Below the pieces are notes generated by a model, which did no database searches, was not told the DNA's origin, and saw nothing but the letters and a program-made list of their open reading frames with translations. A program made the translations under genes and the position numbers. DNA of 39,997 nt from a virus. Of this stretch, positions 11,400-39,997 are shown one piece after another. Within the stretch, counting starts at the first letter, position 1. Every line of letters begins with the position of its first letter. Location: positions 1 to 39,997 of IMG/VR virus record IMGVR_UViG_3300020371_000023. One strand, given 5' to 3'.

Positions 11400-11981
11400 G
11401 TGGAAACAATTTATTGGTTTGTCTTAAATGCTAATGACTTACCTCCTTCAGAAACATATTTACCTGTACAAAGATACAATGAAGATACATTTGGTTGTCC
11501 TCAAATGGTTAAATATAATCAACATAGAGCATATATAGAAAGTCCTGTATCATTTGAGCTACGTAATAATGAACTATATGTAGAAAAAGAAATGCCTCGT
11601 ATGTTTGACATAATGCACACGGGACATAAAGTAATGCAGATGCCTTATTGTTTTCTTACAAAAAATAAAAACATTAAATTATTTTTACAAAATATATCTA
11701 CATTAGAAATGACAGAAGGCATTATACCTATAGGTAAATATCCTAGAATTATAAATTATACATTTAAAGGTAGCGGAAAAATTAATCAAGGTGACCCAAT
11801 TATACAAGTGTTGTTTAACGAACCTGTAAAATTAGTACATATAGTACCTAATGAAAGTATTTTAAATTTTGTACAATCAACATATCAAATATCTCATTAC
11901 AAAAATAATATAACTAAAATATTTAATAGAACTTCTATTGCTTACCCAAGAAAAGAGTTAGATAAATGTCAAAGAAGATAA
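11400..11981 (+). CDS. Unknown protein related to the 13119-13835 product, GTG start
   Basis: 193 residues. GTG 11400 is chosen because AGGAG lies seven bases upstream. Features are a CP dipeptide (residues 33-34), a Pro-containing beta region and a C-terminal section with GDPIIQVLFNEPVKLVHI (about 136-153). The product of 13119-13835 shows the same order: CP, then a strand region, then GTPLITLLPV...KVKL. The two therefore look like distant paralogues flanking the halogenase gene. Such small beta proteins occur beside oxygenases and halogenases in marine phages. Function unknown. It overlaps the halogenase start by 16 nt. Confidence 0.55.
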   Translation: METIYWFVLNANDLPPSETYLPVQRYNEDTFGCPQMVKYNQHRAYIESPVSFELRNNELYVEKEMPRMFDIMHTGHKVMQMPYCFLTKNKNIKLFLQNISTLEMTEGIIPIGKYPRIINYTFKGSGKINQGDPIIQVLFNEPVKLVHIVPNESILNFVQSTYQISHYKNNITKIFNRTSIAYPRKELDKCQRR

Positions 11982-13129
11982 CAATATTAGGTAAAGGAAC
12001 TGCAGGTAGTATTGCTGCTGCACACTTTTCACACTATACAGAAGATGAAATAGAAGTTATATACGATAGCAATATACCTGAGGCTGCAGTAGGAGAAGGT
12101 TCTCAATTATCTTTGCCTAAATTACTGACAAACATATTTAATTTATCTTGGCTTGAGTTATCTAAAATAAATTACAATGCTAAACAAGGTATTATGTATC
12201 AAAACTGGGGTGCAAATAATTACTTTCACAATTTTCCTATACCTGAAAGTGCTTGGCATTTTAATGCATTAGGTCTACAAAATTTTATAAAAGAAAAAAT
12301 TGAACATAAAGTTAATTATATAGATAAACATATAAAAAATGTAAATGAATTAGATACTGATTATGTAATTGATTGTAGAGGTAAACCTACTATGGATGAT
12401 AGGTTTGCAATACAACATGATATGGTTATTAACTCAGCTTATGTAGTTCAATGTCCATGGGATTATCCTAAAATACAATATACATTAGCTATAGCTAGAC
12501 CATATGGTTGGGTATTTGGTGTTCCATTATCTAATAGATTGTCATTAGGTTATATGTATAATGATAAATTTAATACAGTTGATGAAGTTAAAAAAGATAT
12601 AGAAGAAGTTCTAAACCTATTAGAAGAAGAAGCAGACGGTAAAATAAATAATCTTTCATTTAATAATTATAAATTAAAACAAAACTATAGTGAGTATCAA
12701 TCACATAATGGTAACGCATCATTCTTTTTAGAACCATTAGAAGCTACCTCTATTGAAACTATTGACTTTATTAATAGACAAACATATGACCTTATATACA
12801 ATTCACATACTATTGATTTTGCACAACAAAAATTAGACATGTGGTTTGATGAAACTAATGTAATAATTATGATGCATTATGCAGCAGGTAGTAAATTTGA
12901 TACACCATTTTGGAAACATGCTGTAGAAAAAGGTTGGAATTGTTTAGACAATGCACCTATTACTTTTACAGAACAAGTACAAAATATACAAAGATATCTT
13001 GATAAACAAATACATAGTAATGAATTAGGTATATTTGGTGCAGGTTGGAATTTAAGAAGTCAAGCAGAAAATCTTATAGGATTAGGTATATACGATAAAC
13101 TTATAGAAAGGATTAAAGTTGCAAATTAG
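11966..13129 (+). CDS. FAD-dependent halogenase-like protein (tryptophan halogenase family)
   Basis: 387 residues. The N-terminus has the FAD Rossmann motif GKGTAGS (9-15) followed by VGEGS (42-46). The catalytic Lys of the family is present in NAKQGIMYQNW (Lys73), and the conserved Glu lies in FLEPLEATS (254-262; Glu259). The family signature WxWxIP appears as GWVFGVP (181-187), with the second Trp replaced by Phe. The protein is about 130-150 residues shorter than bacterial tryptophan halogenases. It would use reduced FAD, O2 and halide to make HOCl or HOBr, but the substrate is unknown. It sits in the tail-fibre region, as the halogenase-like genes of cyanophages do, with related genes on both sides. 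It may modify the fibre or a host surface molecule (inference). Confidence 0.75.
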   Translation: MSKKITILGKGTAGSIAAAHFSHYTEDEIEVIYDSNIPEAAVGEGSQLSLPKLLTNIFNLSWLELSKINYNAKQGIMYQNWGANNYFHNFPIPESAWHFNALGLQNFIKEKIEHKVNYIDKHIKNVNELDTDYVIDCRGKPTMDDRFAIQHDMVINSAYVVQCPWDYPKIQYTLAIARPYGWVFGVPLSNRLSLGYMYNDKFNTVDEVKKDIEEVLNLLEEEADGKINNLSFNNYKLKQNYSEYQSHNGNASFFLEPLEATSIETIDFINRQTYDLIYNSHTIDFAQQKLDMWFDETNVIIMMHYAAGSKFDTPFWKHAVEKGWNCLDNAPITFTEQVQNIQRYLDKQIHSNELGIFGAGWNLRSQAENLIGLGIYDKLIERIKVAN

Positions 13130-22078: not shown

Positions 22079-23143
22079 TCATACATTCTTGCCAAGTTTT
22101 ACCAAGTATTCTGCTGTAACACCAGAGCCTGGCTTAGCAAATAATAACCATTGACACGGTCTACCCATTGAAGCAAGCTGTTCTAATGCATATGTGTTGT
22201 AGCTTTCAGTACTACCATTAACCCATAAACGTATGTCATTTACGTACATAGTGGTAGGTGTATGCCAATGTCCTGCAATAGCATAGTCAAAGTCTGGCAT
22301 AAGTCCTCTACTAGCTAATGCTTTCCAACCTAATAGCTTTTTACCAAAGCCATACCAGGGGAAACCTGAGTGTCCTCGTATGTTATCACCGTGCCATACG
22401 AAGAACTTGCATCCTTTACCAAGGTTAGCAATATCAAACCAATGATTGTCACCCTCAGAATCAGGAATAATAAATTGTATTCTGTTATCTTTTTCATATG
22501 TCATATCCATTATCTTTCCAAGCATTCTATCTGCATTAGAATCTGGATGGTAGTCTTTTCTTGCACGTCCACCTAGTGAACCGTGGTTACCTATTACCCA
22601 ATGTACTTCTACTTCGTTAAAGTTTGCTAGTAATATGTCAAAGAATTGTGTCAATATTCTAGGACCGTCAATAGTTACTTGGTTATATAGACTAGCGTCA
22701 ATAAGATGTGTTTGACCTGGGAATATAAGTTCACCTTCTACTATGTCACCAGCTGCTAACACAACACATTTGTTAACCGGGTGTGCAGAACGCTGTACGT
22801 TAGTAAGTTCTACAATCTTATTAGCATATTGAACTACTCGTTCTTCTGCTACTTTAGTATTGTAGTCAGGTGTAACCTTAGCTAGTTGTACATCAGATAA
22901 CACGGCAACTGCTACCTCAGCGTCCTTTGTTTTCTTATGTAGTTTAGGCTTAGGTATCTTAGGTTTGTTCCACGTCCTTAGGTTTGTAGATACTGCGTCA
23001 TACACAGCGTCAACCATATCAGCTTTTTTGTTTTTAGCTTTTTCTAATTGTCGTAAGAGTTTGACATTATCAGCTTTTAACTCAGCTATCTTAGATGACT
23101 CTGCTTCTGCTAACAGTTTTTCTATATTAATTTTCTTGGACAT
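22079..23143 (-). CDS. Metallophosphoesterase (calcineurin-like)
   Basis: 354 residues from ATG 23143 (a TTG start at 23152 is also possible). An N-terminal coiled coil spans about residues 5-45. The phosphoesterase core shows DVQ (84-86, in place of the usual DxH), AAGDIVEG (130-137), GNHG (185-188), HGD (251-253) and GHWH (291-294). These are the metal ligands of the calcineurin superfamily, to which SbcD/Mre11 nucleases belong. The DxQ variant recurs in phage members. It may act on DNA ends with the Rad52-like protein, or on nucleotides; the sequence does not decide. Confidence 0.75.
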   Translation of the reverse strand: MSKKINIEKLLAEAESSKIAELKADNVKLLRQLEKAKNKKADMVDAVYDAVSTNLRTWNKPKIPKPKLHKKTKDAEVAVAVLSDVQLAKVTPDYNTKVAEERVVQYANKIVELTNVQRSAHPVNKCVVLAAGDIVEGELIFPGQTHLIDASLYNQVTIDGPRILTQFFDILLANFNEVEVHWVIGNHGSLGGRARKDYHPDSNADRMLGKIMDMTYEKDNRIQFIIPDSEGDNHWFDIANLGKGCKFFVWHGDNIRGHSGFPWYGFGKKLLGWKALASRGLMPDFDYAIAGHWHTPTTMYVNDIRLWVNGSTESYNTYALEQLASMGRPCQWLLFAKPGSGVTAEYLVKLGKNV

Positions 23144-23369
23144 TAGCGTCAACTATATTCTGAAAGTGATGTCTAACTGCAGTCTCACTTATCTTTATGT
23201 TGTAATGTTCTTTTAGTAGTCTTGATACAACGAAGGGTTTGACTGGTCGTCCAGCTTTTACTCGGTCTTCTAGGCCTTCCCAAAAAGGTTTTGCCTCGTC
23301 AGTTATTCGACTAAGTATAGCAGTTCTCTTACCATTCTCTGCTTCGTCAAGCATTTCATTTATATCCAT
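23127..23369 (-). CDS. Small helical DNA-binding-like protein (80 aa)
   Basis: 80 residues. An N-terminal helix is followed by a basic stretch (DRVKAGRPVKPFVVSRLLKEHY, written here in part as RVKAGRP) and a C-terminal block KISETAVRHHF (about 58-68), which looks like the recognition helix of a helix-turn-helix. It may be a regulator. The start ATG 23369 has no clear ribosome site; a TATAAT lies only six bases upstream, so a leaderless mRNA is possible. Confidence 0.55.
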   Translation of the reverse strand: MDINEMLDEAENGKRTAILSRITDEAKPFWEGLEDRVKAGRPVKPFVVSRLLKEHYNIKISETAVRHHFQNIVDANVQEN

Positions 23370-23375
23370 GTGTTC

Positions 23376-23403
23376 ATTATAACCTTTCTTATTTAGTATG
23401 CAA
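23376..23403 (-). promoter_or_regulatory. Candidate leaderless promoter
   Basis: On the minus strand TTGCAT (23403-23398) and TATAAT (23381-23376) are spaced 16 bases. The start codon of the small HTH gene at 23369 begins six bases after the -10 box, where a transcript would start. An inverted repeat TTATTTAGT (23389-23397)/ACTAAATAA (23426-23434) overlaps the -35 region and could be an operator. Confidence 0.45.
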
Positions 23404-23439
23404 TTAACTAAGTAATTAATTCCAAACTAAATAACATCT

Positions 23440-23901
23440 ACTATGAAGGTATGTATTTAGCACCTACATACTGGCTCAATCCCATCCTTTATCTATACAT
23501 ATGGATGATGCATAGCCTTGGTTTCTAGTATTGGATAAGTGGATATAATTGTCCATTGGTTATCCGCAATCTATGGGACGCAATCCTCATGCGACATAGC
23601 AGTAGCTATATAGTTTTATTTATTATGGCATATTATCCTTTGTATTTCCTCATTGGTATCATTGGCATCCGTCTCCGTTCAGTCGTCTCACTCGTGGTAG
23701 AGTTCCACTCATTCGCCTCCCTCACTTCGCTTCATGCCAATGAACTTGGTATGCAGCAGTGTTCACTAAAGGTTGATTGTTGACTTAGAAGTTATCACCC
23801 GTTGCAGGTTCTCCCTGCACTCTATTCTGCTACTAACATAGCTTTGATAAGCGGAAAGGAACACCTACTCCCTTGCGGGATTACTATGTCTACCGCCTAT
23901 C
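23440..23901 (-). ncRNA. Large structured RNA candidate in a 535-base gap
   Basis: The gap 23370-23904 has no credible gene. On the minus strand it folds into many helices. The 5' domain is closed by GATAGGCGG (23901-23893) with CCGCTTATC (23854-23846), nine pairs with one G-U. Inside is TCCC-GCAA-GGGA (23880-23869), a GNRA tetraloop hairpin. ACATAG (23889-23884) pairs with CTATGT (23841-23836) across it, a pseudoknot. TGCAGG/CCTGCA (23819-23803) is a hairpin. TCATTGGCAT/ATGCCAATGA (23743-23659) is a ten-pair long-range helix. CTATG/CATAG with inner CGCA/TGCG (23599-23571), GGATAA/TTATCC (23565-23533) and GTATGT/ACATAC (23471-23449) follow. The G-U pairs and the GNRA loop favour the minus strand. 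Class unknown; the size is like phage ornate RNAs such as ROOL or GOLLD. Confidence 0.7.
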
Positions 23902-23904
23902 TTA

Positions 23905-25329
23905 CTATTGATTTAGTTTTAATGCATATTCTTTTACTTCATCTATATCTTTTAGATTAATAATCTTATGCTTGGTACATATATCGTAACATTCTTTAAG
24001 CAAGTTAAAGCCTGATGTATCACCTGTCGCACCGAATACATACATATCGGACACCCAGATTCTTCTAGCTGGCATAGTAGCTAACCATTCTAAAGCTGGG
24101 CCGTCAACAACATTACCACCACCTGAGTGATTGTATAGATATGTATCTGTAACACGCTTACCATTCTGTGCAATGATATGCAAGTCACCTGTAATATGTG
24201 AACCGTTGTACATTGCAATGTTAACAGCAGGTAATAACTTCATAATTTCTAGTATGTCATCACTGTTAAAGTTCATAGAACCTGATGCGTCTATCAATAT
24301 AGTACCGCCTTTAACATTAAGTTTTTGTTTGAATATCTTTTTGTCAATACAAAATCTGTTAATGTATTTAGGATTGTAACCGTAATCCATAGGTCTATAT
24401 TGCCTAGAACCTTTTAGTTTAGATTGCAAGTTAACTGTTAATGGTGGTGTATGTATATTCATTTTCCCCCAATAACCTATACCACTGCCTGAATGATAAT
24501 TCATCTTGTTAAGTAATTCATTACGCATTCTATCTTCTAATGATTTAACAGTACCATCTATTTCACCGTCATCACTTTCTTCGCTTTCTTCACCTTCTGC
24601 TGATGATGGCTGTGGTACTGGTGGTGTGTATGGTTCTGGTGGGTCCATAAACATATCCAAATATTTACTTAATACTGCTGCTTGCTTTTGAACTTTCCTA
24701 TAACTAGGTGTTTGTCCTGCACGGTTATTCATAATTGCCCTAGCAAATTGTTGTATTAAAGATGTTGCTACATTAAGTTCTGCTTTACGCATAGGTGATA
24801 ATGTTATATCATCTTGTGCTTGTTCTAACAATGCAAATAATTGTTTGACTTGGTCTGTACCTTCTGAAAAGTTGTACAAACTTTGTCCTCTTTGCATTGT
24901 AAAATTATCTATACCATACAATAACAAGTTAGCAATAGGCATATTCTTAATCATATTTGCTATATAACCTCTATGAATATCCATACACATAGTAGGTTCG
25001 TTAATAGGTTTGTCGGCTCGTGATAATAAATAATTAACACGGACACTTTCTAATACATCTACTGCTTCTTTGCGTGTACCTGGTTTTAGTTTACCGCGTG
25101 TAGCTGGTGACCATTTAGCATAACCTAACTGCTTGCGTCTAATCATACGACTATGATTAACACCACATAATGCACAATGTCTATCCAAAGGTACATACAT
25201 TTTCTTATTTAGATTATCTGTATCTGGTTCTGGATTTATATCGGTTGTTTCATATACATCCCAACTATCCCCAGTTACAATTTGGGGATAGGGATATGCT
25301 TTGTCGTTACTATACACGGGATATGTCAA
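23905..25329 (-). CDS. Von Willebrand A-domain protein (CobT-like)
   Basis: 474 residues from TTG 25329 (a GTG at 25317 is an alternative). CALC with a nearby His (52-59) near the N-terminus may bind zinc. A helical region (about 85-225) is followed by a Pro/acidic linker (230-258). The C-terminal domain has DASGSM (347-352), the MIDAS metal site, and WVSD (425-428). It overlaps the AAA+ gene by 20 nt, and such pairs (MoxR with VWA) act together as in CobS/CobT cobaltochelatase, Mg-chelatase and protein-remodelling systems. In phages they are often labelled CobST, but the substrate here is unknown. Confidence 0.75.
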   Translation of the reverse strand: MTYPVYSNDKAYPYPQIVTGDSWDVYETTDINPEPDTDNLNKKMYVPLDRHCALCGVNHSRMIRRKQLGYAKWSPATRGKLKPGTRKEAVDVLESVRVNYLLSRADKPINEPTMCMDIHRGYIANMIKNMPIANLLLYGIDNFTMQRGQSLYNFSEGTDQVKQLFALLEQAQDDITLSPMRKAELNVATSLIQQFARAIMNNRAGQTPSYRKVQKQAAVLSKYLDMFMDPPEPYTPPVPQPSSAEGEESEESDDGEIDGTVKSLEDRMRNELLNKMNYHSGSGIGYWGKMNIHTPPLTVNLQSKLKGSRQYRPMDYGYNPKYINRFCIDKKIFKQKLNVKGGTILIDASGSMNFNSDDILEIMKLLPAVNIAMYNGSHITGDLHIIAQNGKRVTDTYLYNHSGGGNVVDGPALEWLATMPARRIWVSDMYVFGATGDTSGFNLLKECYDICTKHKIINLKDIDEVKEYALKLNQ

Positions 25330-26029
25330 TCGCGTCTACTAATTCTTCGGCATTATCACCGAAGACTAGCTTACCTGCAGTTTCTGGTGTGAAACCTTTA
25401 GCTTGTAAGTCAAAGAATTCTTTCCAAGCACGAACAGATATGCGTTCTTCTGGGTCATCAACAAGCGTAGTGTCATTGATAACATCGTGCCATTCCTTAG
25501 GGAATTGTGCTAATGCACTTGGATGTATAGTATTTACGTGAATTTTGACTGGAAACCTATCTTTCAATGCAAGTGGTAGACTTTCTGGTGGGCTGTTAGT
25601 TGTAGCAACAACTTGAAAACCTTCCGCTGGTCTAACTGTTTCCTTTGTATCATTGTTAAGTGTTAACATAGCAATGTCTTGGTCATCTAGTATAGCGTGC
25701 AAGAATGTCATAGCGTCTGGTGATGCGTGGTCAATCTCATTGATAACCAATCTACCGCCATTACGCCAGGCTTGTATTGCAATACCATCGTGCCATTCAA
25801 ATGTACCTGTGCTAGATGGTTTGTAAAAACCTTCTAAGTTTGCAGAAGCTGTGTCTTCTGTCATAGTAATTTGAAATACATTAGCAAGTCCATCCATAGT
25901 CAATGGTGTACCTTGCTTAACTGCACTGTATGTTTTACCTGTACCTGGTGGCCCGTATAATAATACACGCCTGGATTTACCTAGTACTTGTTGTATTAAT
26001 TTCCAACAATCGTTGTTAGTATTTGTCAT
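25310..26029 (-). CDS. MoxR-type AAA+ ATPase (CobS-like)
   Basis: 239 residues. Walker A GPPGTGKT (26-33), Walker B LVINEID (94-100), sensor-1-like ATTN (142-145) and an arginine-finger segment LKDRF (155-159) fit the MoxR/CobS AAA+ family. The protein is a bare ATPase core, shorter than bacterial MoxR proteins. AAGGAAGGAAC gives a strong ribosome site for ATG 26029. The gene overlaps the VWA gene, so the two products probably form a hexamer-plus-adaptor complex that remodels or inserts metal into a target. Confidence 0.8.
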   Translation of the reverse strand: MTNTNNDCWKLIQQVLGKSRRVLLYGPPGTGKTYSAVKQGTPLTMDGLANVFQITMTEDTASANLEGFYKPSSTGTFEWHDGIAIQAWRNGGRLVINEIDHASPDAMTFLHAILDDQDIAMLTLNNDTKETVRPAEGFQVVATTNSPPESLPLALKDRFPVKIHVNTIHPSALAQFPKEWHDVINDTTLVDDPEERISVRAWKEFFDLQAKGFTPETAGKLVFGDNAEELVDAIDISRV

Positions 26030-34193: not shown

Positions 34194-34557
34194 AGGCGGA
34201 TATAGACAACCAAATAATCCTGCACCTGTAGCTACACCACAAGGTGGACAAAGAACAGATGGTGGACCTGGTAGCAGTAAACAACCATTAAGAAGATTAC
34301 CTGATGCTGATTATGGACAAAACAAAGCATTTGTAGAACAACAACAAGCAGCACCATTACCAAAACAAGAAAGACTTAACCCTAACATATTTGCACCTAC
34401 TGAATATCCTGGTGAACCTGCAACAGAAGGGTTGCCTATAGGACCTGGTAGTGGACCTACTGTTATGCCTGATAATATAGATACTATATTGCAAGCAATG
34501 CATAAGTTAAACCCATCTCCTTTAGTTGCAGATATGATTAACAACAGGGTTGATTAA
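34177..34557 (+). CDS. Small Pro/Gln-rich protein before giant gene (126 aa)
   Basis: 126 residues, starting MAKKRRGGYRQPNNPAP: a basic, Pro/Gln/Gly-rich, likely disordered N-terminal 85 residues, then a short helical C-terminal segment (ILQAMHKLNPSPLVADMINNRVD, about 103-126, partly given). It ends in TAATG that starts the giant gene, so the two are made together. It may be a virion-associated or assembly factor. The family is known from phages only by pattern. Confidence 0.55.
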   Translation: MAKKRRGGYRQPNNPAPVATPQGGQRTDGGPGSSKQPLRRLPDADYGQNKAFVEQQQAAPLPKQERLNPNIFAPTEYPGEPATEGLPIGPGSGPTVMPDNIDTILQAMHKLNPSPLVADMINNRVD

Positions 34558-37500
34558 TGGGATTTTATTTACACGATAGAAACGCATACGAAGATTTAAT
34601 TAAAGCTAATGCTAGACAAGAACTAAAAGTAGCACAGTATGAAGATATATTACAAAAATCTGACCCTTTACAGATTTTAGAAAATTATAGCAAGTATCAA
34701 CAAGAGATGCCTGAAATAGGCTCACCTGATGCTATGTCATTATCACAACTTAATGTTCCTACAAACTACGATACTGCAAGAACTATTGCACAAGCATCAG
34801 CTAATAAAAGAATATTTGACGAAGCTAGATTATGGAATGAATTACAACAAGAGTTTGGTGATGATAGTGTAGCTGACAATATGAAAATGACTGCTGCTGA
34901 TGTATGGACATTAGGATTAGCACCAGGTGGAGCTAAACCATTTCAAACACAAGCAGGTGTATGGGCATTTGCTGCATTAGATTGGTTGTTTCAAACTATA
35001 GGACCAGGTGGTTCTGGTAAGTGGTCTATAGGTTCACAAGCTATAAATGCATTATTACCTGGACAACCTATGGCTGTAGGACGTTCTGTAGCATATTTAA
35101 GAGATTTAAGAGAATACGATAAATTATTAAAGAATGGATATTCGAAAGTTCAAGCACAAAATAAACTGTCAATTGATTTAAGTGGTACAAGAGTACAAGG
35201 ATTAGGTGAAAACTTAGGTCCTGTAGGAGAAATTAAACAACAAATCGATATGATAGCTGAAGCACATAAGATGGGTGGTGAACCTGTTATAACTGCTATG
35301 TATAGAGCTGTGCTAGAAGGTAAACCTATTAACTTTGATAGAAGTAGATGGTTTATAACAGAAAGTGTTAAAGCAGAAAAAACACCTCATTACATTAAAC
35401 TTACACAAGATTATGGTATGTCACCTGATGAAGCTAGAGATTTTATATATAAAAACATTGGTAATCCATTAAGAGGTAGCTATGACCCTAAGACTGGTGA
35501 AACTAATTATGCTTTTGATGGTGAGGGTGGTAATTTATACTACACATCATATGATAATCCAAACAAAATTAACTTTTATGCAGGTCGACATAGACAAAAG
35601 TATTTCTTTGCAGGCATAGATAGACAAGATTACTTTAGACCTGAGTGGGCTGACAGAGATATTTTAATGGAGTACTCACCAGGTAAAGTACAATCATCTG
35701 AATTCTTTGAACCAGGTACTACTGCATTTAGAAATATGTCAGGTTTAATTGATGCAGCACATCAAATTGTGCCAGAAATATTTCTAGGTAAAGGCATTAA
35801 AGGTGTTAGAAATGTTTCTAAAGGTTTAAGAGGTGTTAATGGTGCATATGAAATGGTTAACCAAGGTAAACTTGTTAAACGAGGACTTGTTAAAAACTAT
35901 ATAGTTACACCTAGAAAATTAGCTGACAATGTATTAGAAGAAGTAGGACCAAGGATTGATGGTGCTACTGGTAATGGTAAAATTGATGATTTAGTAGATA
36001 GCGGATATCAATTACTTACTAATAAAAATATTACACCTGATACTGCTAACCAGAGAAAATGGCTTAAAAAGATGAGAAAAGAACAAACATTGTTTGGTTA
36101 TGTGCCAAGGTTCTTTCAATTAACACAAGATGAAATATTAAATCAACCAATTAACATAAGATTCTTTAAAGCTGTAGCTGAAGAAGATAACTTAATGATT
36201 ATGGGTAGTAATAACATAATTAAAGATATGCCTGCACAAGTACAAAAAGCTTTAGTAGAAGCAGATGATTGGAAAGATGTACAAAATATATTTGGTCAAA
36301 TGATTGATACTGGATATAAAATACAAAACAAGTATGGAGAAATGGTTCCTTATACTTTACCAGGCAAAGTATTACCTAAGACTGGTTCAATGATACTTAA
36401 TAGATTTTTACAAAAAGCAGGAATAGATAAATCATACAGAACATTTGGTAGTTTTGCTGGTGAAAATATACGTAAAGTAAAAGATACTGTTATGCCTTAT
36501 ATGCCTTTTAGACGTAATCCAAGTAAGTTAACTAGAGTAGAAAACACAGATGCTGTAGTAATTGACCAAGCAGCAGATGTTGCTAATAAAATATCTGAAT
36601 TAGCTAAAACAGAAAACGCTCCTATGGTTTATAAGTTTCAAGAAATGAGACAACGTAAACTACCTGAGTTTGAAAAGTATCTTGGATTTTCATCTAATTA
36701 CAATTCAACATACAATCCTTATTACAGAAAGTTATTGAGTGTTGTACCTGAAATGGGTATACCATTGAATAACTTAGATTCAGGATACAGACAGCTAATA
36801 GGTCATTTGCAAGTTAATCAATATGATGATATTGAAGCTAATAAAATATTAAAAGAGTTTTTAGATATAGACCCTAATAAAAAATCTCTATACAGAGACT
36901 TTGCACAACAACAAGCATTAAGAGATGTCAAGATGATTAAAGCAAGAGGTGGTAACTGGGAATATGTAGCACAAGTTGCTGATGAAATGTTTGAAGGTTT
37001 ACAAAAATCTAAAATATATGCTACTGATAAAAATGGTCAAATGCTACCAAGCATTGGTACAAGATATAAAGGACAAGATATAAATCATGTTGGTAATGCT
37101 GTAGATGAATTTGGTAACGTAACAACTTCTGTATCAGGTTCTATGTTGTCAGAAATGCAAGATAATATAGCACCTTTATTAGATTATAGATTAATTGAAC
37201 GTTCATTAGGTCCTTTGTTTAAAGCATATCCAGATGGTAAGTATGTTCCTACATCATTTTTAGGTGATATGAAAGCATATGCTAAATATAAAGGACAAAA
37301 CAAATGGTGGGGTAAACCTGGAGAAGATTTACCTAATCCATTTGATGATGGTATTATTAATGTTAAAAGATTAGAAGATAATTTTTTAAGCAACACGCTA
37401 CAGTTTTATACACGAAATATATTTAAACCTCTTGTACTTATGAGATTTGCTTTCTTTACACGTGTATTTATGGAAGAACAAGCACGTATGGCAATGAAAG

Positions 37501-39997
37501 GTATATCTAATATTTATAGTAAACCTTGGGAATATCTTACTTGGTTAGCTGCACATAATCCTAATTCTAAAGTAGGTTCAATATTAGAAAATCTACCATT
37601 TACAAGAGGATATCAAAAAGCTAAATACAGTGATGATGCTGTTGATTTCTTAATGGAAGAAGAAATTATGGAAGCTATGCAAAAAAGTATGCGATATGAA
37701 GATATTACAGGAACAAGTCTTAAAGCAAGAAATAGACATACTGAATATGTAGCTAAACGTACTGAAGAATTAAACCAAGATGAAATTAATTTAGCTGTTT
37801 ATCACGAACTTAGATTATTAAAAGGAGACCCAATAAACCAGGCTGTTGCTAAATATGGATATGGTAGTAATGAATTAGCTGAATGGTTAATATCAGATGC
37901 TGGTAAAAAAGCAAGATTAGAATTAGTAAGGTACGGTGGTAGAGGACATGCTGATTTTATAGAAGAATCATCTAAAGCTTTAGACCAACATTTACAAATG
38001 GTTGAATCAAGAATACGTAAAATAGCTGGTGGAGAATTAGATTTAGCAAAAGATGCTATTAAAAATAAAGATGGTACTTACACATACGCAATTAGGTCTG
38101 ATGTTAATGTTGGAGATGCAGCTATACGTAATTTAATTGCTGAAGGTAAATTACTTAAAAAAGGTAAAACAGGTACAAAAAGTTCTGATTATGTAGATTT
38201 TATGTCTAACGAAAAGTTTTTCAAAAAATATGACAAAAACAAAATGATGAAAGAACTTGGTTATTGGTACAACAAAGAAGATGGAATTAATCCAGGTGTA
38301 TTAAATCAAGTAAGAGATGTTGTTCCTACTGAAGGTGTTAATAACTATTTAGGAACAGTAGAAGAAATGATGGACCATTTCTTTGACACAGTGTTTACTA
38401 GATTAATGACTAAACCAATTGGTGTACTTAATCGTTCTACTACATTTAAACAATTTAGATGGATGTATATTGCTGAACGATTTAAAGATATGGATAAAAG
38501 CGTAAGAGCTAAATTTATAAAAGAAGGTATAGAAGCAGGTATACCTAAAAATGTAATTAAAGAACTTAGAGGTCAAGATAGTTTATATAAATCAGGACCT
38601 ATTAAAGATTTTCAAGTTATGGACACAGAATCTAAAGCTTATGGTCTTGCTGGTGTAAAAGAATTATTATACGATACAAGAAAAAGACATACACTATCTG
38701 ACAAGCTTGTAAATGTATTTCCATTTATTGAAGTATGGTTTGAAGTATTCCAAACTTGGGGACAATTACTTGCAGAAAAACCATATGCATTAAGACAAGC
38801 ACAAGTAGCTACAAGAGGACTTGGTGCTGCAAATACATTAGGTGAAAGTAGTGATGATGGATTTATATCACCAGACCCTATGAATCCTGATAAAGATGTA
38901 TTTGTTTATCCATTTGGTGGATTTATGTCAAATATATTATTTGATGATGAAATGTTTAGTGACAGTGATAGAAAAGTACAAATGTCACCTAAAGCATCAT
39001 TGCAAGGTGTTAACTTATTAGCACAAGGTTTTGTACCAGGACCTAACTCTATGGTATCTTTTGCACTTAGTAAAGTAATACCTAAAGCAGAATCAGCTAC
39101 AACTGCTGTTGGTATTAAAAGTGGTTGGGGTAATGAGTTAGAAACATTTATATTTGGTGAGTTTCCACCACCAGAAAAACTAAGAGATGTATTTAGAGAA
39201 TCACCTGTTTATAGGAAACTAGGTGCTGCAATGTTAGATGAAGATGAGTTTGAAAGAATAACTGATGGTTCTAGTCAAATTGCAAGAATGCGTGCTAAAA
39301 GTACTATTGAGTTATTTAGATGGGGTGTAGCTTCTGGTGAATCACAAAGGTTATATAAAGCTGGTAAGTTAGATAAATACATACCAAAGTTGTATCCAGA
39401 GTTTGATAAAAACGAATTAAATAAAGGTCAAATAGATAATCTTTATTTAGAGTATGCCAAAGAAAAATCAGGTACATTATTTGCATTTCAATTTATGTAT
39501 CAGTTTTTTGGTCCTGCTGGATTTAAACCAGAGTTTTTTATTGAAGATGACCAAGGACAAATGTGGGGACAAGCTGTACTTTATGAAGAATATGTTCGTA
39601 TTAGAGAAGAACAAGGTGGTAATGACTTAAGAACATACACTGCTTTTTTAGAGGAATTTGGAGTAGAACATCCATATCTATTAAGTCCTAGAACACAAGC
39701 AGAAGGTGGCAAACAAAATTACAGTGTTAGAGTACAAAATTTTCAAAAAGATAATCCTGAAATGTTTGCTAACTTAGAAGTAAGTGGTTATTACTTAAAC
39801 ATTGATAATCCTTATGAAGAAAAAAATTATAGAGATATTTTAGATTATAAAAATGAACTAAGTCCTGACCAATATCGTAGAGCTATAAATGATACTATAG
39901 GTTTCTTTAGATATAAAAGGTATTCACAAAAGATTGACAATTATGAATACATGGATAGTACAAGAAAAACTATTCTTAAAAGACATTTTAGAAATGA
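34557..39997 (+). CDS. Giant virion protein, N-terminal 1,813 codons (continues at base 1)
   Basis: The frame starts at ATG 34557, which shares its A with the stop of the upstream gene (TAATG), and stays open to the last base. The final two bases (GA) plus base 1 (A) make a Glu codon, after which the frame at base 2 continues in phase to 1114, giving about 2,184 residues. I recognise no catalytic motif. The protein is mostly hydrophilic with helical stretches and Gly/Ala-rich segments near residues 120-180. Lying between portal and scaffold/capsid, it is probably an internal virion or ejection protein, like the very large internal proteins of podoviruses. That role is inferred from position and size, not homology. 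It would be packaged with the portal and delivered into the cell or periplasm at infection. Confidence 0.85.
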   Translation, partial: MGFYLHDRNAYEDLIKANARQELKVAQYEDILQKSDPLQILENYSKYQQEMPEIGSPDAMSLSQLNVPTNYDTARTIAQASANKRIFDEARLWNELQQEFGDDSVADNMKMTAADVWTLGLAPGGAKPFQTQAGVWAFAALDWLFQTIGPGGSGKWSIGSQAINALLPGQPMAVGRSVAYLRDLREYDKLLKNGYSKVQAQNKLSIDLSGTRVQGLGENLGPVGEIKQQIDMIAEAHKMGGEPVITAMYRAVLEGKPINFDRSRWFITESVKAEKTPHYIKLTQDYGMSPDEARDFIYKNIGNPLRGSYDPKTGETNYAFDGEGGNLYYTSYDNPNKINFYAGRHRQKYFFAGIDRQDYFRPEWADRDILMEYSPGKVQSSEFFEPGTTAFRNMSGLIDAAHQIVPEIFLGKGIKGVRNVSKGLRGVNGAYEMVNQGKLVKRGLVKNYIVTPRKLADNVLEEVGPRIDGATGNGKIDDLVDSGYQLLTNKNITPDTANQRKWLKKMRKEQTLFGYVPRFFQLTQDEILNQPINIRFFKAVAEEDNLMIMGSNNIIKDMPAQVQKALVEADDWKDVQNIFGQMIDTGYKIQNKYGEMVPYTLPGKVLPKTGSMILNRFLQKAGIDKSYRTFGSFAGENIRKVKDTVMPYMPFRRNPSKLTRVENTDAVVIDQAADVANKISELAKTENAPMVYKFQEMRQRKLPEFEKYLGFSSNYNSTYNPYYRKLLSVVPEMGIPLNNLDSGYRQLIGHLQVNQYDDIEANKILKEFLDIDPNKKSLYRDFAQQQALRDVKMIKARGGNWEYVAQVADEMFEGLQKSKIYATDKNGQMLPSIGTRYKGQDINHVGNAVDEFGNVTTSVSGSMLSEMQDNIAPLLDYRLIERSLGPLFKAYPDGKYVPTSFLGDMKAYAKYKGQNKWWGKPGEDLPNPFDDGIINVKRLEDNFLSNTLQFYTRNIFKPLVLMRFAFFTRVFMEEQARMAMKGISNIYSKPWEYLTWLAAHNPNSKVGSILENLPFTRGYQKAKYSDDAVDFLMEEEIMEAMQKSMRYEDITGTSLKARNRHTEYVAKRTEELNQDEINLAVYHELRLLKGDPINQAVAKYGYGSNELAEWLISDAGKKARLELVRYGGRGHADFIEESSKALDQHLQMVESRIRKIAGGELDLAKDAIKNKDGTYTYAIRSDVNVGDAAIRNLIAEGKLLKKGKTGTKSSDYVDFMSNEKFFKKYDKNKMMKELGYWYNKEDGINPGVLNQVRDVVPTEGVNNYLGTVEEMMDHFFDTVFTRLMTKPIGVLNRSTTFKQFRWMYIAERFKDMDKSVRAKFIKEGIEAGIPKNVIKELRGQDSLYKSGPIKDFQVMDTESKAYGLAGVKELLYDTRKRHTLSDKLVNVFPFIEVWFEVFQTWGQLLAEKPYALRQAQVATRGLGAANTLGESSDDGFISPDPMNPDKDVFVYPFGGFMSNILFDDEMFSDSDRKVQMSPKASLQGVNLLAQGFVPGPNSMVSFALSKVIPKAESATTAVGIKSGWGNELETFIFGEFPPPEKLRDVFRESPVYRKLGAAMLDEDEFERITDGSSQIARMRAKSTIELFRWGVASGESQRLYKAGKLDKYIPKLYPEFDKNELNKGQIDNLYLEYAKEKSGTLFAFQFMYQFFGPAGFKPEFFIEDDQGQMWGQAVLYEEYVRIREEQGGNDLRTYTAFLEEFGVEHPYLLSPRTQAEGGKQNYSVRVQNFQKDNPEMFANLEVSGYYLNIDNPYEEKNYRDILDYKNELSPDQYRRAINDTIGFFRYKRYSQKIDNYEYMDSTRKTILKRHFRN

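Follow-up and report, generated by a model that had tools for sequence, protein, structure and literature searches.

A conserved structured RNA of phages with an anti-Shine–Dalgarno-like loop and, in its long forms, a candidate start–stop element

Introduction

To our knowledge, only a small number of large structured RNAs have been described from phages, and two of them, ROOL and GOLLD, are without an established function. Here we ask whether a gap in an otherwise tightly packed viral genome arm encodes an RNA of this kind, and what such an RNA might do. The sequence, a virus record from IMG/VR, is 39,997 bases long and was analysed over its whole length (the window). On its minus strand, a gap separates the stop codon of a VWA-protein gene from a small gene for an 80-amino-acid protein (23127–23369). 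A preliminary description, made from the letters alone, had counted 535 bases in this gap and placed in it a large, ornately folded minus-strand RNA starting directly after the VWA stop codon; the length is correct (23370–23904), and the RNA does directly follow the VWA-protein gene. No minus-strand open reading frame of at least 50 amino acids lies inside the gap. Folding the region gave energy z scores of −2.97 (minus strand) and −2.17 (plus strand), a moderately unusual result that by itself is suggestive, a hint but no proof. We accept the RNA as real because of comparison among its relatives, that is, covariation, and not because of folding alone.

Results

Covariation in a syntenic gap supports a structured RNA

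The VWA protein has 132 relatives in IMG/VR, 80 of whose loci we fetched. In about 74 of these 80, a gap before the same small gene was preserved, ranging in length from 118 to 795 nt. Alignment of the syntenic gaps showed that the 5′ part of about 150 nt (domains A and B) is conserved and that the 3′ part is variable; some 70 natural variants of the RNA are known, the shortest below 200 nt and the longest about 800 nt. Insertions in the gap have lengths that are not multiples of three, beginning with the comparison of the window and its relative L003, and therefore weigh, for both strands, against a conserved protein frame. The features of the locus are collected in Table 1.

Table 1. Features of the RNA locus and its neighbours in the window
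Feature	Coordinates	Strand	Remarks
AAA ATPase gene	25310–26029	−	AAA_5, E 2e-20; adjoins VWA gene
VWA protein, 474 aa, C-terminal VWA domain	23905–25329	−	Upstream neighbour
−10-like TAAGAT	23899–23904	−	Overlaps or abuts VWA stop codon; mostly TATAGT or TACAGT in relatives
Structured RNA	23438–23892	−	About 455 nt, approximate mature extent; alignment of about 74 syntenic gaps and covariation
Domain A, three-way junction	23836–23889	−	Covarying; R2 score for the window, 72.7 bits
PA1 helix of domain A	23889–23884 with 23841–23836	−	
PA2 GCAA hairpin of domain A	23880–23869	−	
PA3 hairpin of domain A	23868–23847	−	
PA3 loop UUCCUUUC	23854–23861	−	Likeness to anti-Shine–Dalgarno end of 16S rRNA
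Domain B, three-way junction	23751–23834	−	Covarying; R1 match
P1 of domain B, 7 pairs	23833–23827 with 23759–23753	−	
P2 hairpin of domain B	23820–23801	−	GAGAA loop in the window
P3 of domain B	23800–23797 with 23773–23770	−	
Strand UUAGUGAACA of domain B	23769–23760	−	
Variable purine-rich hairpin (rod)	23662–23740	−	Stacked G/A mismatches; sequence reading, alignment, minimum-energy fold
Minimal frame: Shine–Dalgarno AAAGGA, AUG (23631–23629), CCA, UAA	23623–23641	−	
Domain C	23438–23602	−	Closed by PC1; RNAalifold and strand-shuffle control
PC1, CUGCUAUG with CAUAGUAG	23602–23595 with 23445–23438	−	The window's eight pairs read by hand
Hairpin inside domain C	23471–23449	−	
Promoter-like TTGCAT-16-TATAAT	23376–23403	−	3′ of the RNA, pointing into the next gene

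Domains A and B are both three-way junctions. In domain A, counted on a plain MAFFT alignment of 39 distinct sequences, 80.3% of cells were paired and 16 of the 17 pairs changed on both sides, with a covariation score of 0.540 versus 0.198 ± 0.016 in shuffled alignments and at most 0.168 with slid partners. Domain B reached 92.7% of cells paired, two-sided changes at 14 of 18 pairs (51 distinct sequences) and a score of 0.629 (shuffled, 0.207 ± 0.012; slid partners, at most 0.118), counts that are somewhat inflated by an alignment fitted to a model with the same structure; its helices were also visible in a plain MAFFT alignment and were recovered by RNAalifold. Domain B runs through P1, the strand AAUAGAGU, P2, whose loop is GAGAR, then P3 and finally the strand AUAGUGAACA, its junction strands UAGAGU and UAGUGAACAC being invariant. 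P1 itself varies widely (GUAGCAG/CUGCUAC, GUAGAGG/CCUCUAC and GAAGUGG/CCACUUC, among others).

Long forms of the RNA, the window among them, also possess a domain C. RNAalifold applied to 14 long forms recovered its long closing helix, PC1, with 89% of cells paired versus 71% when whole strands were shuffled (0 of 2,000 shuffles), on an alignment in which some registers are imperfect for the window. The PC1 strands differ by clade, for example UGCAACGUA/UACGUUGCA in L009 and UACAGUCUG/UAGACUGUA in L030. Between domains B and C lies the rod, whose sequence and length differ among relatives (the window, L003, L004 and others) and which is paired in the minimum-energy fold. CGAAG/CGAGG-like purine-rich motifs recur in the rods of other loci, and the 3′ variable part of L032 has a direct repeat, GGACGAAGCGAGGAAC, flanking a hairpin.

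Comparison thus found covariation in domains A and B and in PC1 and no conserved protein frame across the gap, and the large minus-strand RNA of the preliminary description stands. So do two of its elements, a GNRA-capped hairpin, which is PA2, and a long-range helix. Its nine-pair closing helix (23901–23893 with 23854–23846) is not conserved: the window has it, L003 nearly so, and other clades do not keep its 5′ strand. It also conflicts with the covarying PA3. The minus-strand orientation, first argued from G–U versus A–C mismatches, holds modestly, with 83 G–U versus 48 A–C in the pairs of domains A and B. These counts bear on whether the hairpins might matter as DNA, as in a single-stranded origin or a recombination site. 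Recombination and nuclease genes do lie nearby; the excess of minus-strand G–U over A–C, together with anti-Shine–Dalgarno and start–stop features that have meaning only in RNA, makes a DNA element very improbable. As judged from sequence comparison, a conserved, phage-borne structured RNA family is almost certainly real.

The RNA is phage-borne, and domain B occurs in three phage types

A wider search, which used a pattern made from the junction strands and then the covariance model R1, picked up the same RNA in further loci. It also found domain B without the rest of the RNA in two other phage types, at 51–60 bits, beside a terminase gene in one (L087, L202) and near a DnaB-type helicase gene in the other (L109, L203–L207), these genes being named by reading their protein sequences. 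Among the loci searched, the domain A model R2 matched in the VWA lineage only. In four loci of the helicase type (L109, L203, L205 and L207), a terminator-like U run lies 3′ of the helix that closes domain B, before the next gene.

The carriers are viruses of bacteria, uncultured and for the most part marine. In each of the 14 phage records that we examined (the window and 13 others) the RNA occurs once, and R1 finds one copy of domain B in the window (E 2.3e-18). Neither the RNA, searched as DNA, nor the VWA protein had a match in cultured-phage records. A genome collection yielded a single match, in a gammaproteobacterial metagenome-assembled genome (MAG), where it lies on a phage-like contig. 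Among 369 genomes of the gammaproteobacterial class, only the phage-like contig of a MAG matched well; a second match among the 369 was rejected as chance, as it is antisense to a coding frame. Domain B is nearly absent from cellular genomes.

Domain B relatives in the other phage types are without the anti-Shine–Dalgarno loop described below, so that domain B must have a different role. It might be a compact catalytic or ligand-binding RNA, such as a self-cleaving ribozyme or a riboswitch, to which domains A and C were added later. Its size (a three-way junction of about 80–95 nt), its long invariant strands and its portability among three phage types would suit such an RNA; against this, no Rfam ribozyme or riboswitch matches and the downstream genes have no pathway in common, and we consider this origin quite improbable.

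A loop of domain A resembles the anti-Shine–Dalgarno end of 16S rRNA

The loop of PA3 contains CCUUUC, a motif complementary to Shine–Dalgarno sequences that is thus exposed in the loop of a covarying structure. CCUUUC was present in 62 of 62 distinct loci, a count that covers loci picked by CCTTTC, with variants sitting just 5′ of it. In an unselected alignment of the syntenic gaps of the VWA lineage, the CCTTTC of the loop was never lost. In several clades the loop is CCUCCUUUC, which equals the common 3′ end of 16S rRNA; overall, the loop matches this anti-Shine–Dalgarno end exactly or almost exactly. The divergent L077/L080 clade is predicted to form a similar three-way junction with a CCUCCUUUC loop and without domains B and C. 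R2 fails to detect the L077 clade, and the putative homology of L077/L080 with domain A is drawn from the predicted fold and the loop. AACAAGGU and the P2 hairpin also resemble the 16S 3′ region, a likeness that we dismissed as coincidence because P2 varies freely.

In most long forms the PA3 loop could pair with GAAAGGA of domain C. Covariation is silent on this pairing because the loop and the Shine–Dalgarno sequence are almost invariant. It may be the crossing helix of six pairs in the preliminary description, UCCUUU with AAAGGA, which is possible and whose sides hardly vary.

Long forms contain a candidate start–stop element

Representatives of nine of the ten long-form clades have a Shine–Dalgarno sequence and, a few bases on, a start codon, no or one further codon and a stop codon, whereas dinucleotide shuffles gave a mean of 1.45 and a maximum of 5. 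Close relatives swap stop codons (TAA/TGA in L016 and L009, TAA/TAG in L020 and L010), and the start codon swaps between ATG and TTG, the latter in L040/L045. Such swaps are what a translated start–stop unit would show; they are mostly transitions, which structure could tolerate too. The element is absent from L005–L008 and from short forms. By sequence, it has the layout of a conserved minigene with at most one codon between start and stop.

The RNA is probably a discrete unit

About 58 of 62 loci have a −10-like hexamer in the same place, the VWA stop codon, with a T and frequently TG before it, the pattern of extended −10 promoters. Equally good hexamers were common by chance in AT-rich control windows, so constant position is the sole evidence for this element, which we regard as suggestive only. 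Just before the −10-like element, the end of the VWA gene in L012 (5465–5486) has an inverted repeat, GCACTT...AAGTGC, of which other relatives have shorter versions; it is a possible operator.

A second promoter-like element follows the RNA and would belong to the downstream gene. A strict TTGNNT-(14–17)-TATAAT was found in 30 of 68 loci, directly after P1 in the shortest forms, and TATAATGA aligned in 45 loci, partly owing to the choice of anchor. In many relatives TATAATGA is closely followed by ATG (23369–23403 on the minus strand in the window). This arrangement suggests that the leader of the downstream mRNA is very short or absent. A consensus scanner listed neither the −10-like element nor the downstream promoter-like element, and we found no general terminator. 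The downstream gene's own promoter-like element, right behind the RNA in the shortest forms, speaks for a discrete RNA, and we think it probable that the RNA is a discrete unit. Its likely source is the −10 element at the stop codon of the VWA gene, the VWA operon transcript after processing, or both.

The main rival is a cis-acting leader, an operon untranslated region that would control transcription, processing or translation downstream and in which the start–stop element would be a leader mini-ORF. The RNA is always flanked by the VWA gene on one side and the same small gene on the other, domain B elsewhere also precedes a gene start (a few tens of nucleotides before the terminase start in L202, and adjoining the downstream gene in L109), and a U run follows P1 in some forms (L235, L109). 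However, transcripts from the separate promoter-like element would omit the RNA, no general terminator was found, and the downstream genes, which in the VWA lineage encode the 80-amino-acid protein, an SbcD-like nuclease and a Rad52-like annealing protein, are unrelated across the three phage types. A leader is possible, if on the whole somewhat unlikely.

The neighbouring VWA protein resembles part of a MoxR/CobS–VWA pair

The AlphaFold model of the VWA protein has a mean pLDDT of 81, and its structural matches, with Z up to 7.6, cover about residues 337–474, the VWA domain. With the adjoining AAA_5 ATPase, it looks like a MoxR/CobS–VWA pair. The family consensus has an N-terminal RRHELGHAKW (HExxH, zinc-peptidase-like), degenerate in the window as RRKQLGYAKW. 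Elsewhere on the plus strand of the window, an open frame of at least 1,813 amino acids (34557–39995) runs off the end of the record, and a 387-amino-acid protein (11966–13129) matches PHROG 2928 (tryptophan halogenase, E 2e-59), which is unusual in a phage.

Discussion

We tentatively favour the reading that this is a discrete phage RNA engaging translation initiation, because it combines an anti-Shine–Dalgarno-like loop with a start–stop element in nine of ten long-form clades; the short forms, which are without that element, count against it. The UUCCUUUC loop of PA3 would imitate the anti-Shine–Dalgarno tail of 16S rRNA and pair with the Shine–Dalgarno sequences of messages; in long forms its partner may lie in cis, in the GAAAGGA before the start and stop codons. 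A ribosome recruited there would initiate, terminate at once and so remain parked at that site. Domains A and B could serve as a scaffold that stabilizes the RNA and presents the loop and the start–stop codons, and the outcome would be a shift of translation from host to phage. Rather more doubtful is the specific proposal that a mimic of the 16S 3′ end and, in long forms, a start–stop trap form a device for seizing host initiation, with the portable domain B shared among unrelated phages. The loop and the start–stop codons make for a mechanism that can be checked with a few mutants; the roughly 70 variants tell essential parts from dispensable ones, and one module moves between phage types.

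The family is absent from catalogues, and its newness lies in its sequence and fold; the mechanism is one that we infer. Rfam 15 gave no family match at gathering thresholds over the whole window, and only chance matches at E ≤ 10 over 23300–24000 on both strands. There was no credible homology to known small RNA families in Rfam, and we found no paper describing the RNA.

The preliminary description had likened the RNA to ROOL and GOLLD. Like them, it is a large phage RNA of several domains, with pseudoknot potential and without an established function. It differs in that neither covariance model matches at 23300–24000, at the gathering threshold or at E ≤ 10, and in that some forms are shorter than 200 nt. 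ROOL and GOLLD often, though not obligatorily, lie near tRNA islands, and they assemble into RNA-only multimeric cages; ARAGORN found no tRNA genes in the 39,997 bases. GOLLD was reported to be bound by ribosomes in pull-downs and has a conserved part beside one of low conservation (PMC12286853), but the new RNA has its conserved part at the 5′ side and its variable part at the 3′ side, the reverse of GOLLD. These comparisons also bear on the idea that the fold is itself the product, an oligomer, cage or protein scaffold with no role in translation. Size, phage habitat, several junction domains and the pairing of a conserved with a poorly conserved part fit such a scaffold, whereas the missing Rfam sequence or structure match, the missing tRNA island and shortest forms that are small for a cage make it unlikely. 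What survives of the likeness to ROOL and GOLLD is size and phage habitat only, and membership of the RNA in ROOL, GOLLD or Y RNA is not demonstrated.

A VWA-protein gene beside a structured RNA also recalls the Ro60–Y RNA pair (Rsr–YrlA), which we considered on account of this neighbour and of the CGAAG motifs. The Ro60 partner protein of Y RNA consists of a TROVE ring and a VWA domain. The phage VWA protein has no TROVE match in Pfam even at E ≤ 10 and no match in a PDB sequence search, its structural matches are to VWA domains only (in a comparison that covered mainly the VWA domain), its pairing with the ATPase resembles the MoxR/CobS type, and no Y RNA covariance model matched the RNA at E ≤ 10. 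We dropped this comparison, and a Ro60–Y RNA pair is not supported.

Two other systems share features with the RNA: anti-Shine–Dalgarno small RNAs, which base-pair with mRNAs and repress them, and two-codon minigenes. The alphaproteobacterial anti-Shine–Dalgarno small RNAs alphaR8 and SisA–D expose a C/U-rich motif, UUUCCUCCCU (PMC12559287), as the phage RNA exposes UUCCUUUC or CCUCCUUUC; however, those are host small RNAs with a single-stranded motif, whereas the phage motif is the loop of a junction hairpin and is accompanied by domains B and C. Very short open reading frames hold ribosomes and protect their RNA (PMC8708949). The phage element resembles two-codon minigenes in having a Shine–Dalgarno sequence, a start codon, at most one further codon and a stop codon (PMC8708949), and differs from them in lying inside a structured RNA and in being mostly a start followed by a stop with no sense codon between.
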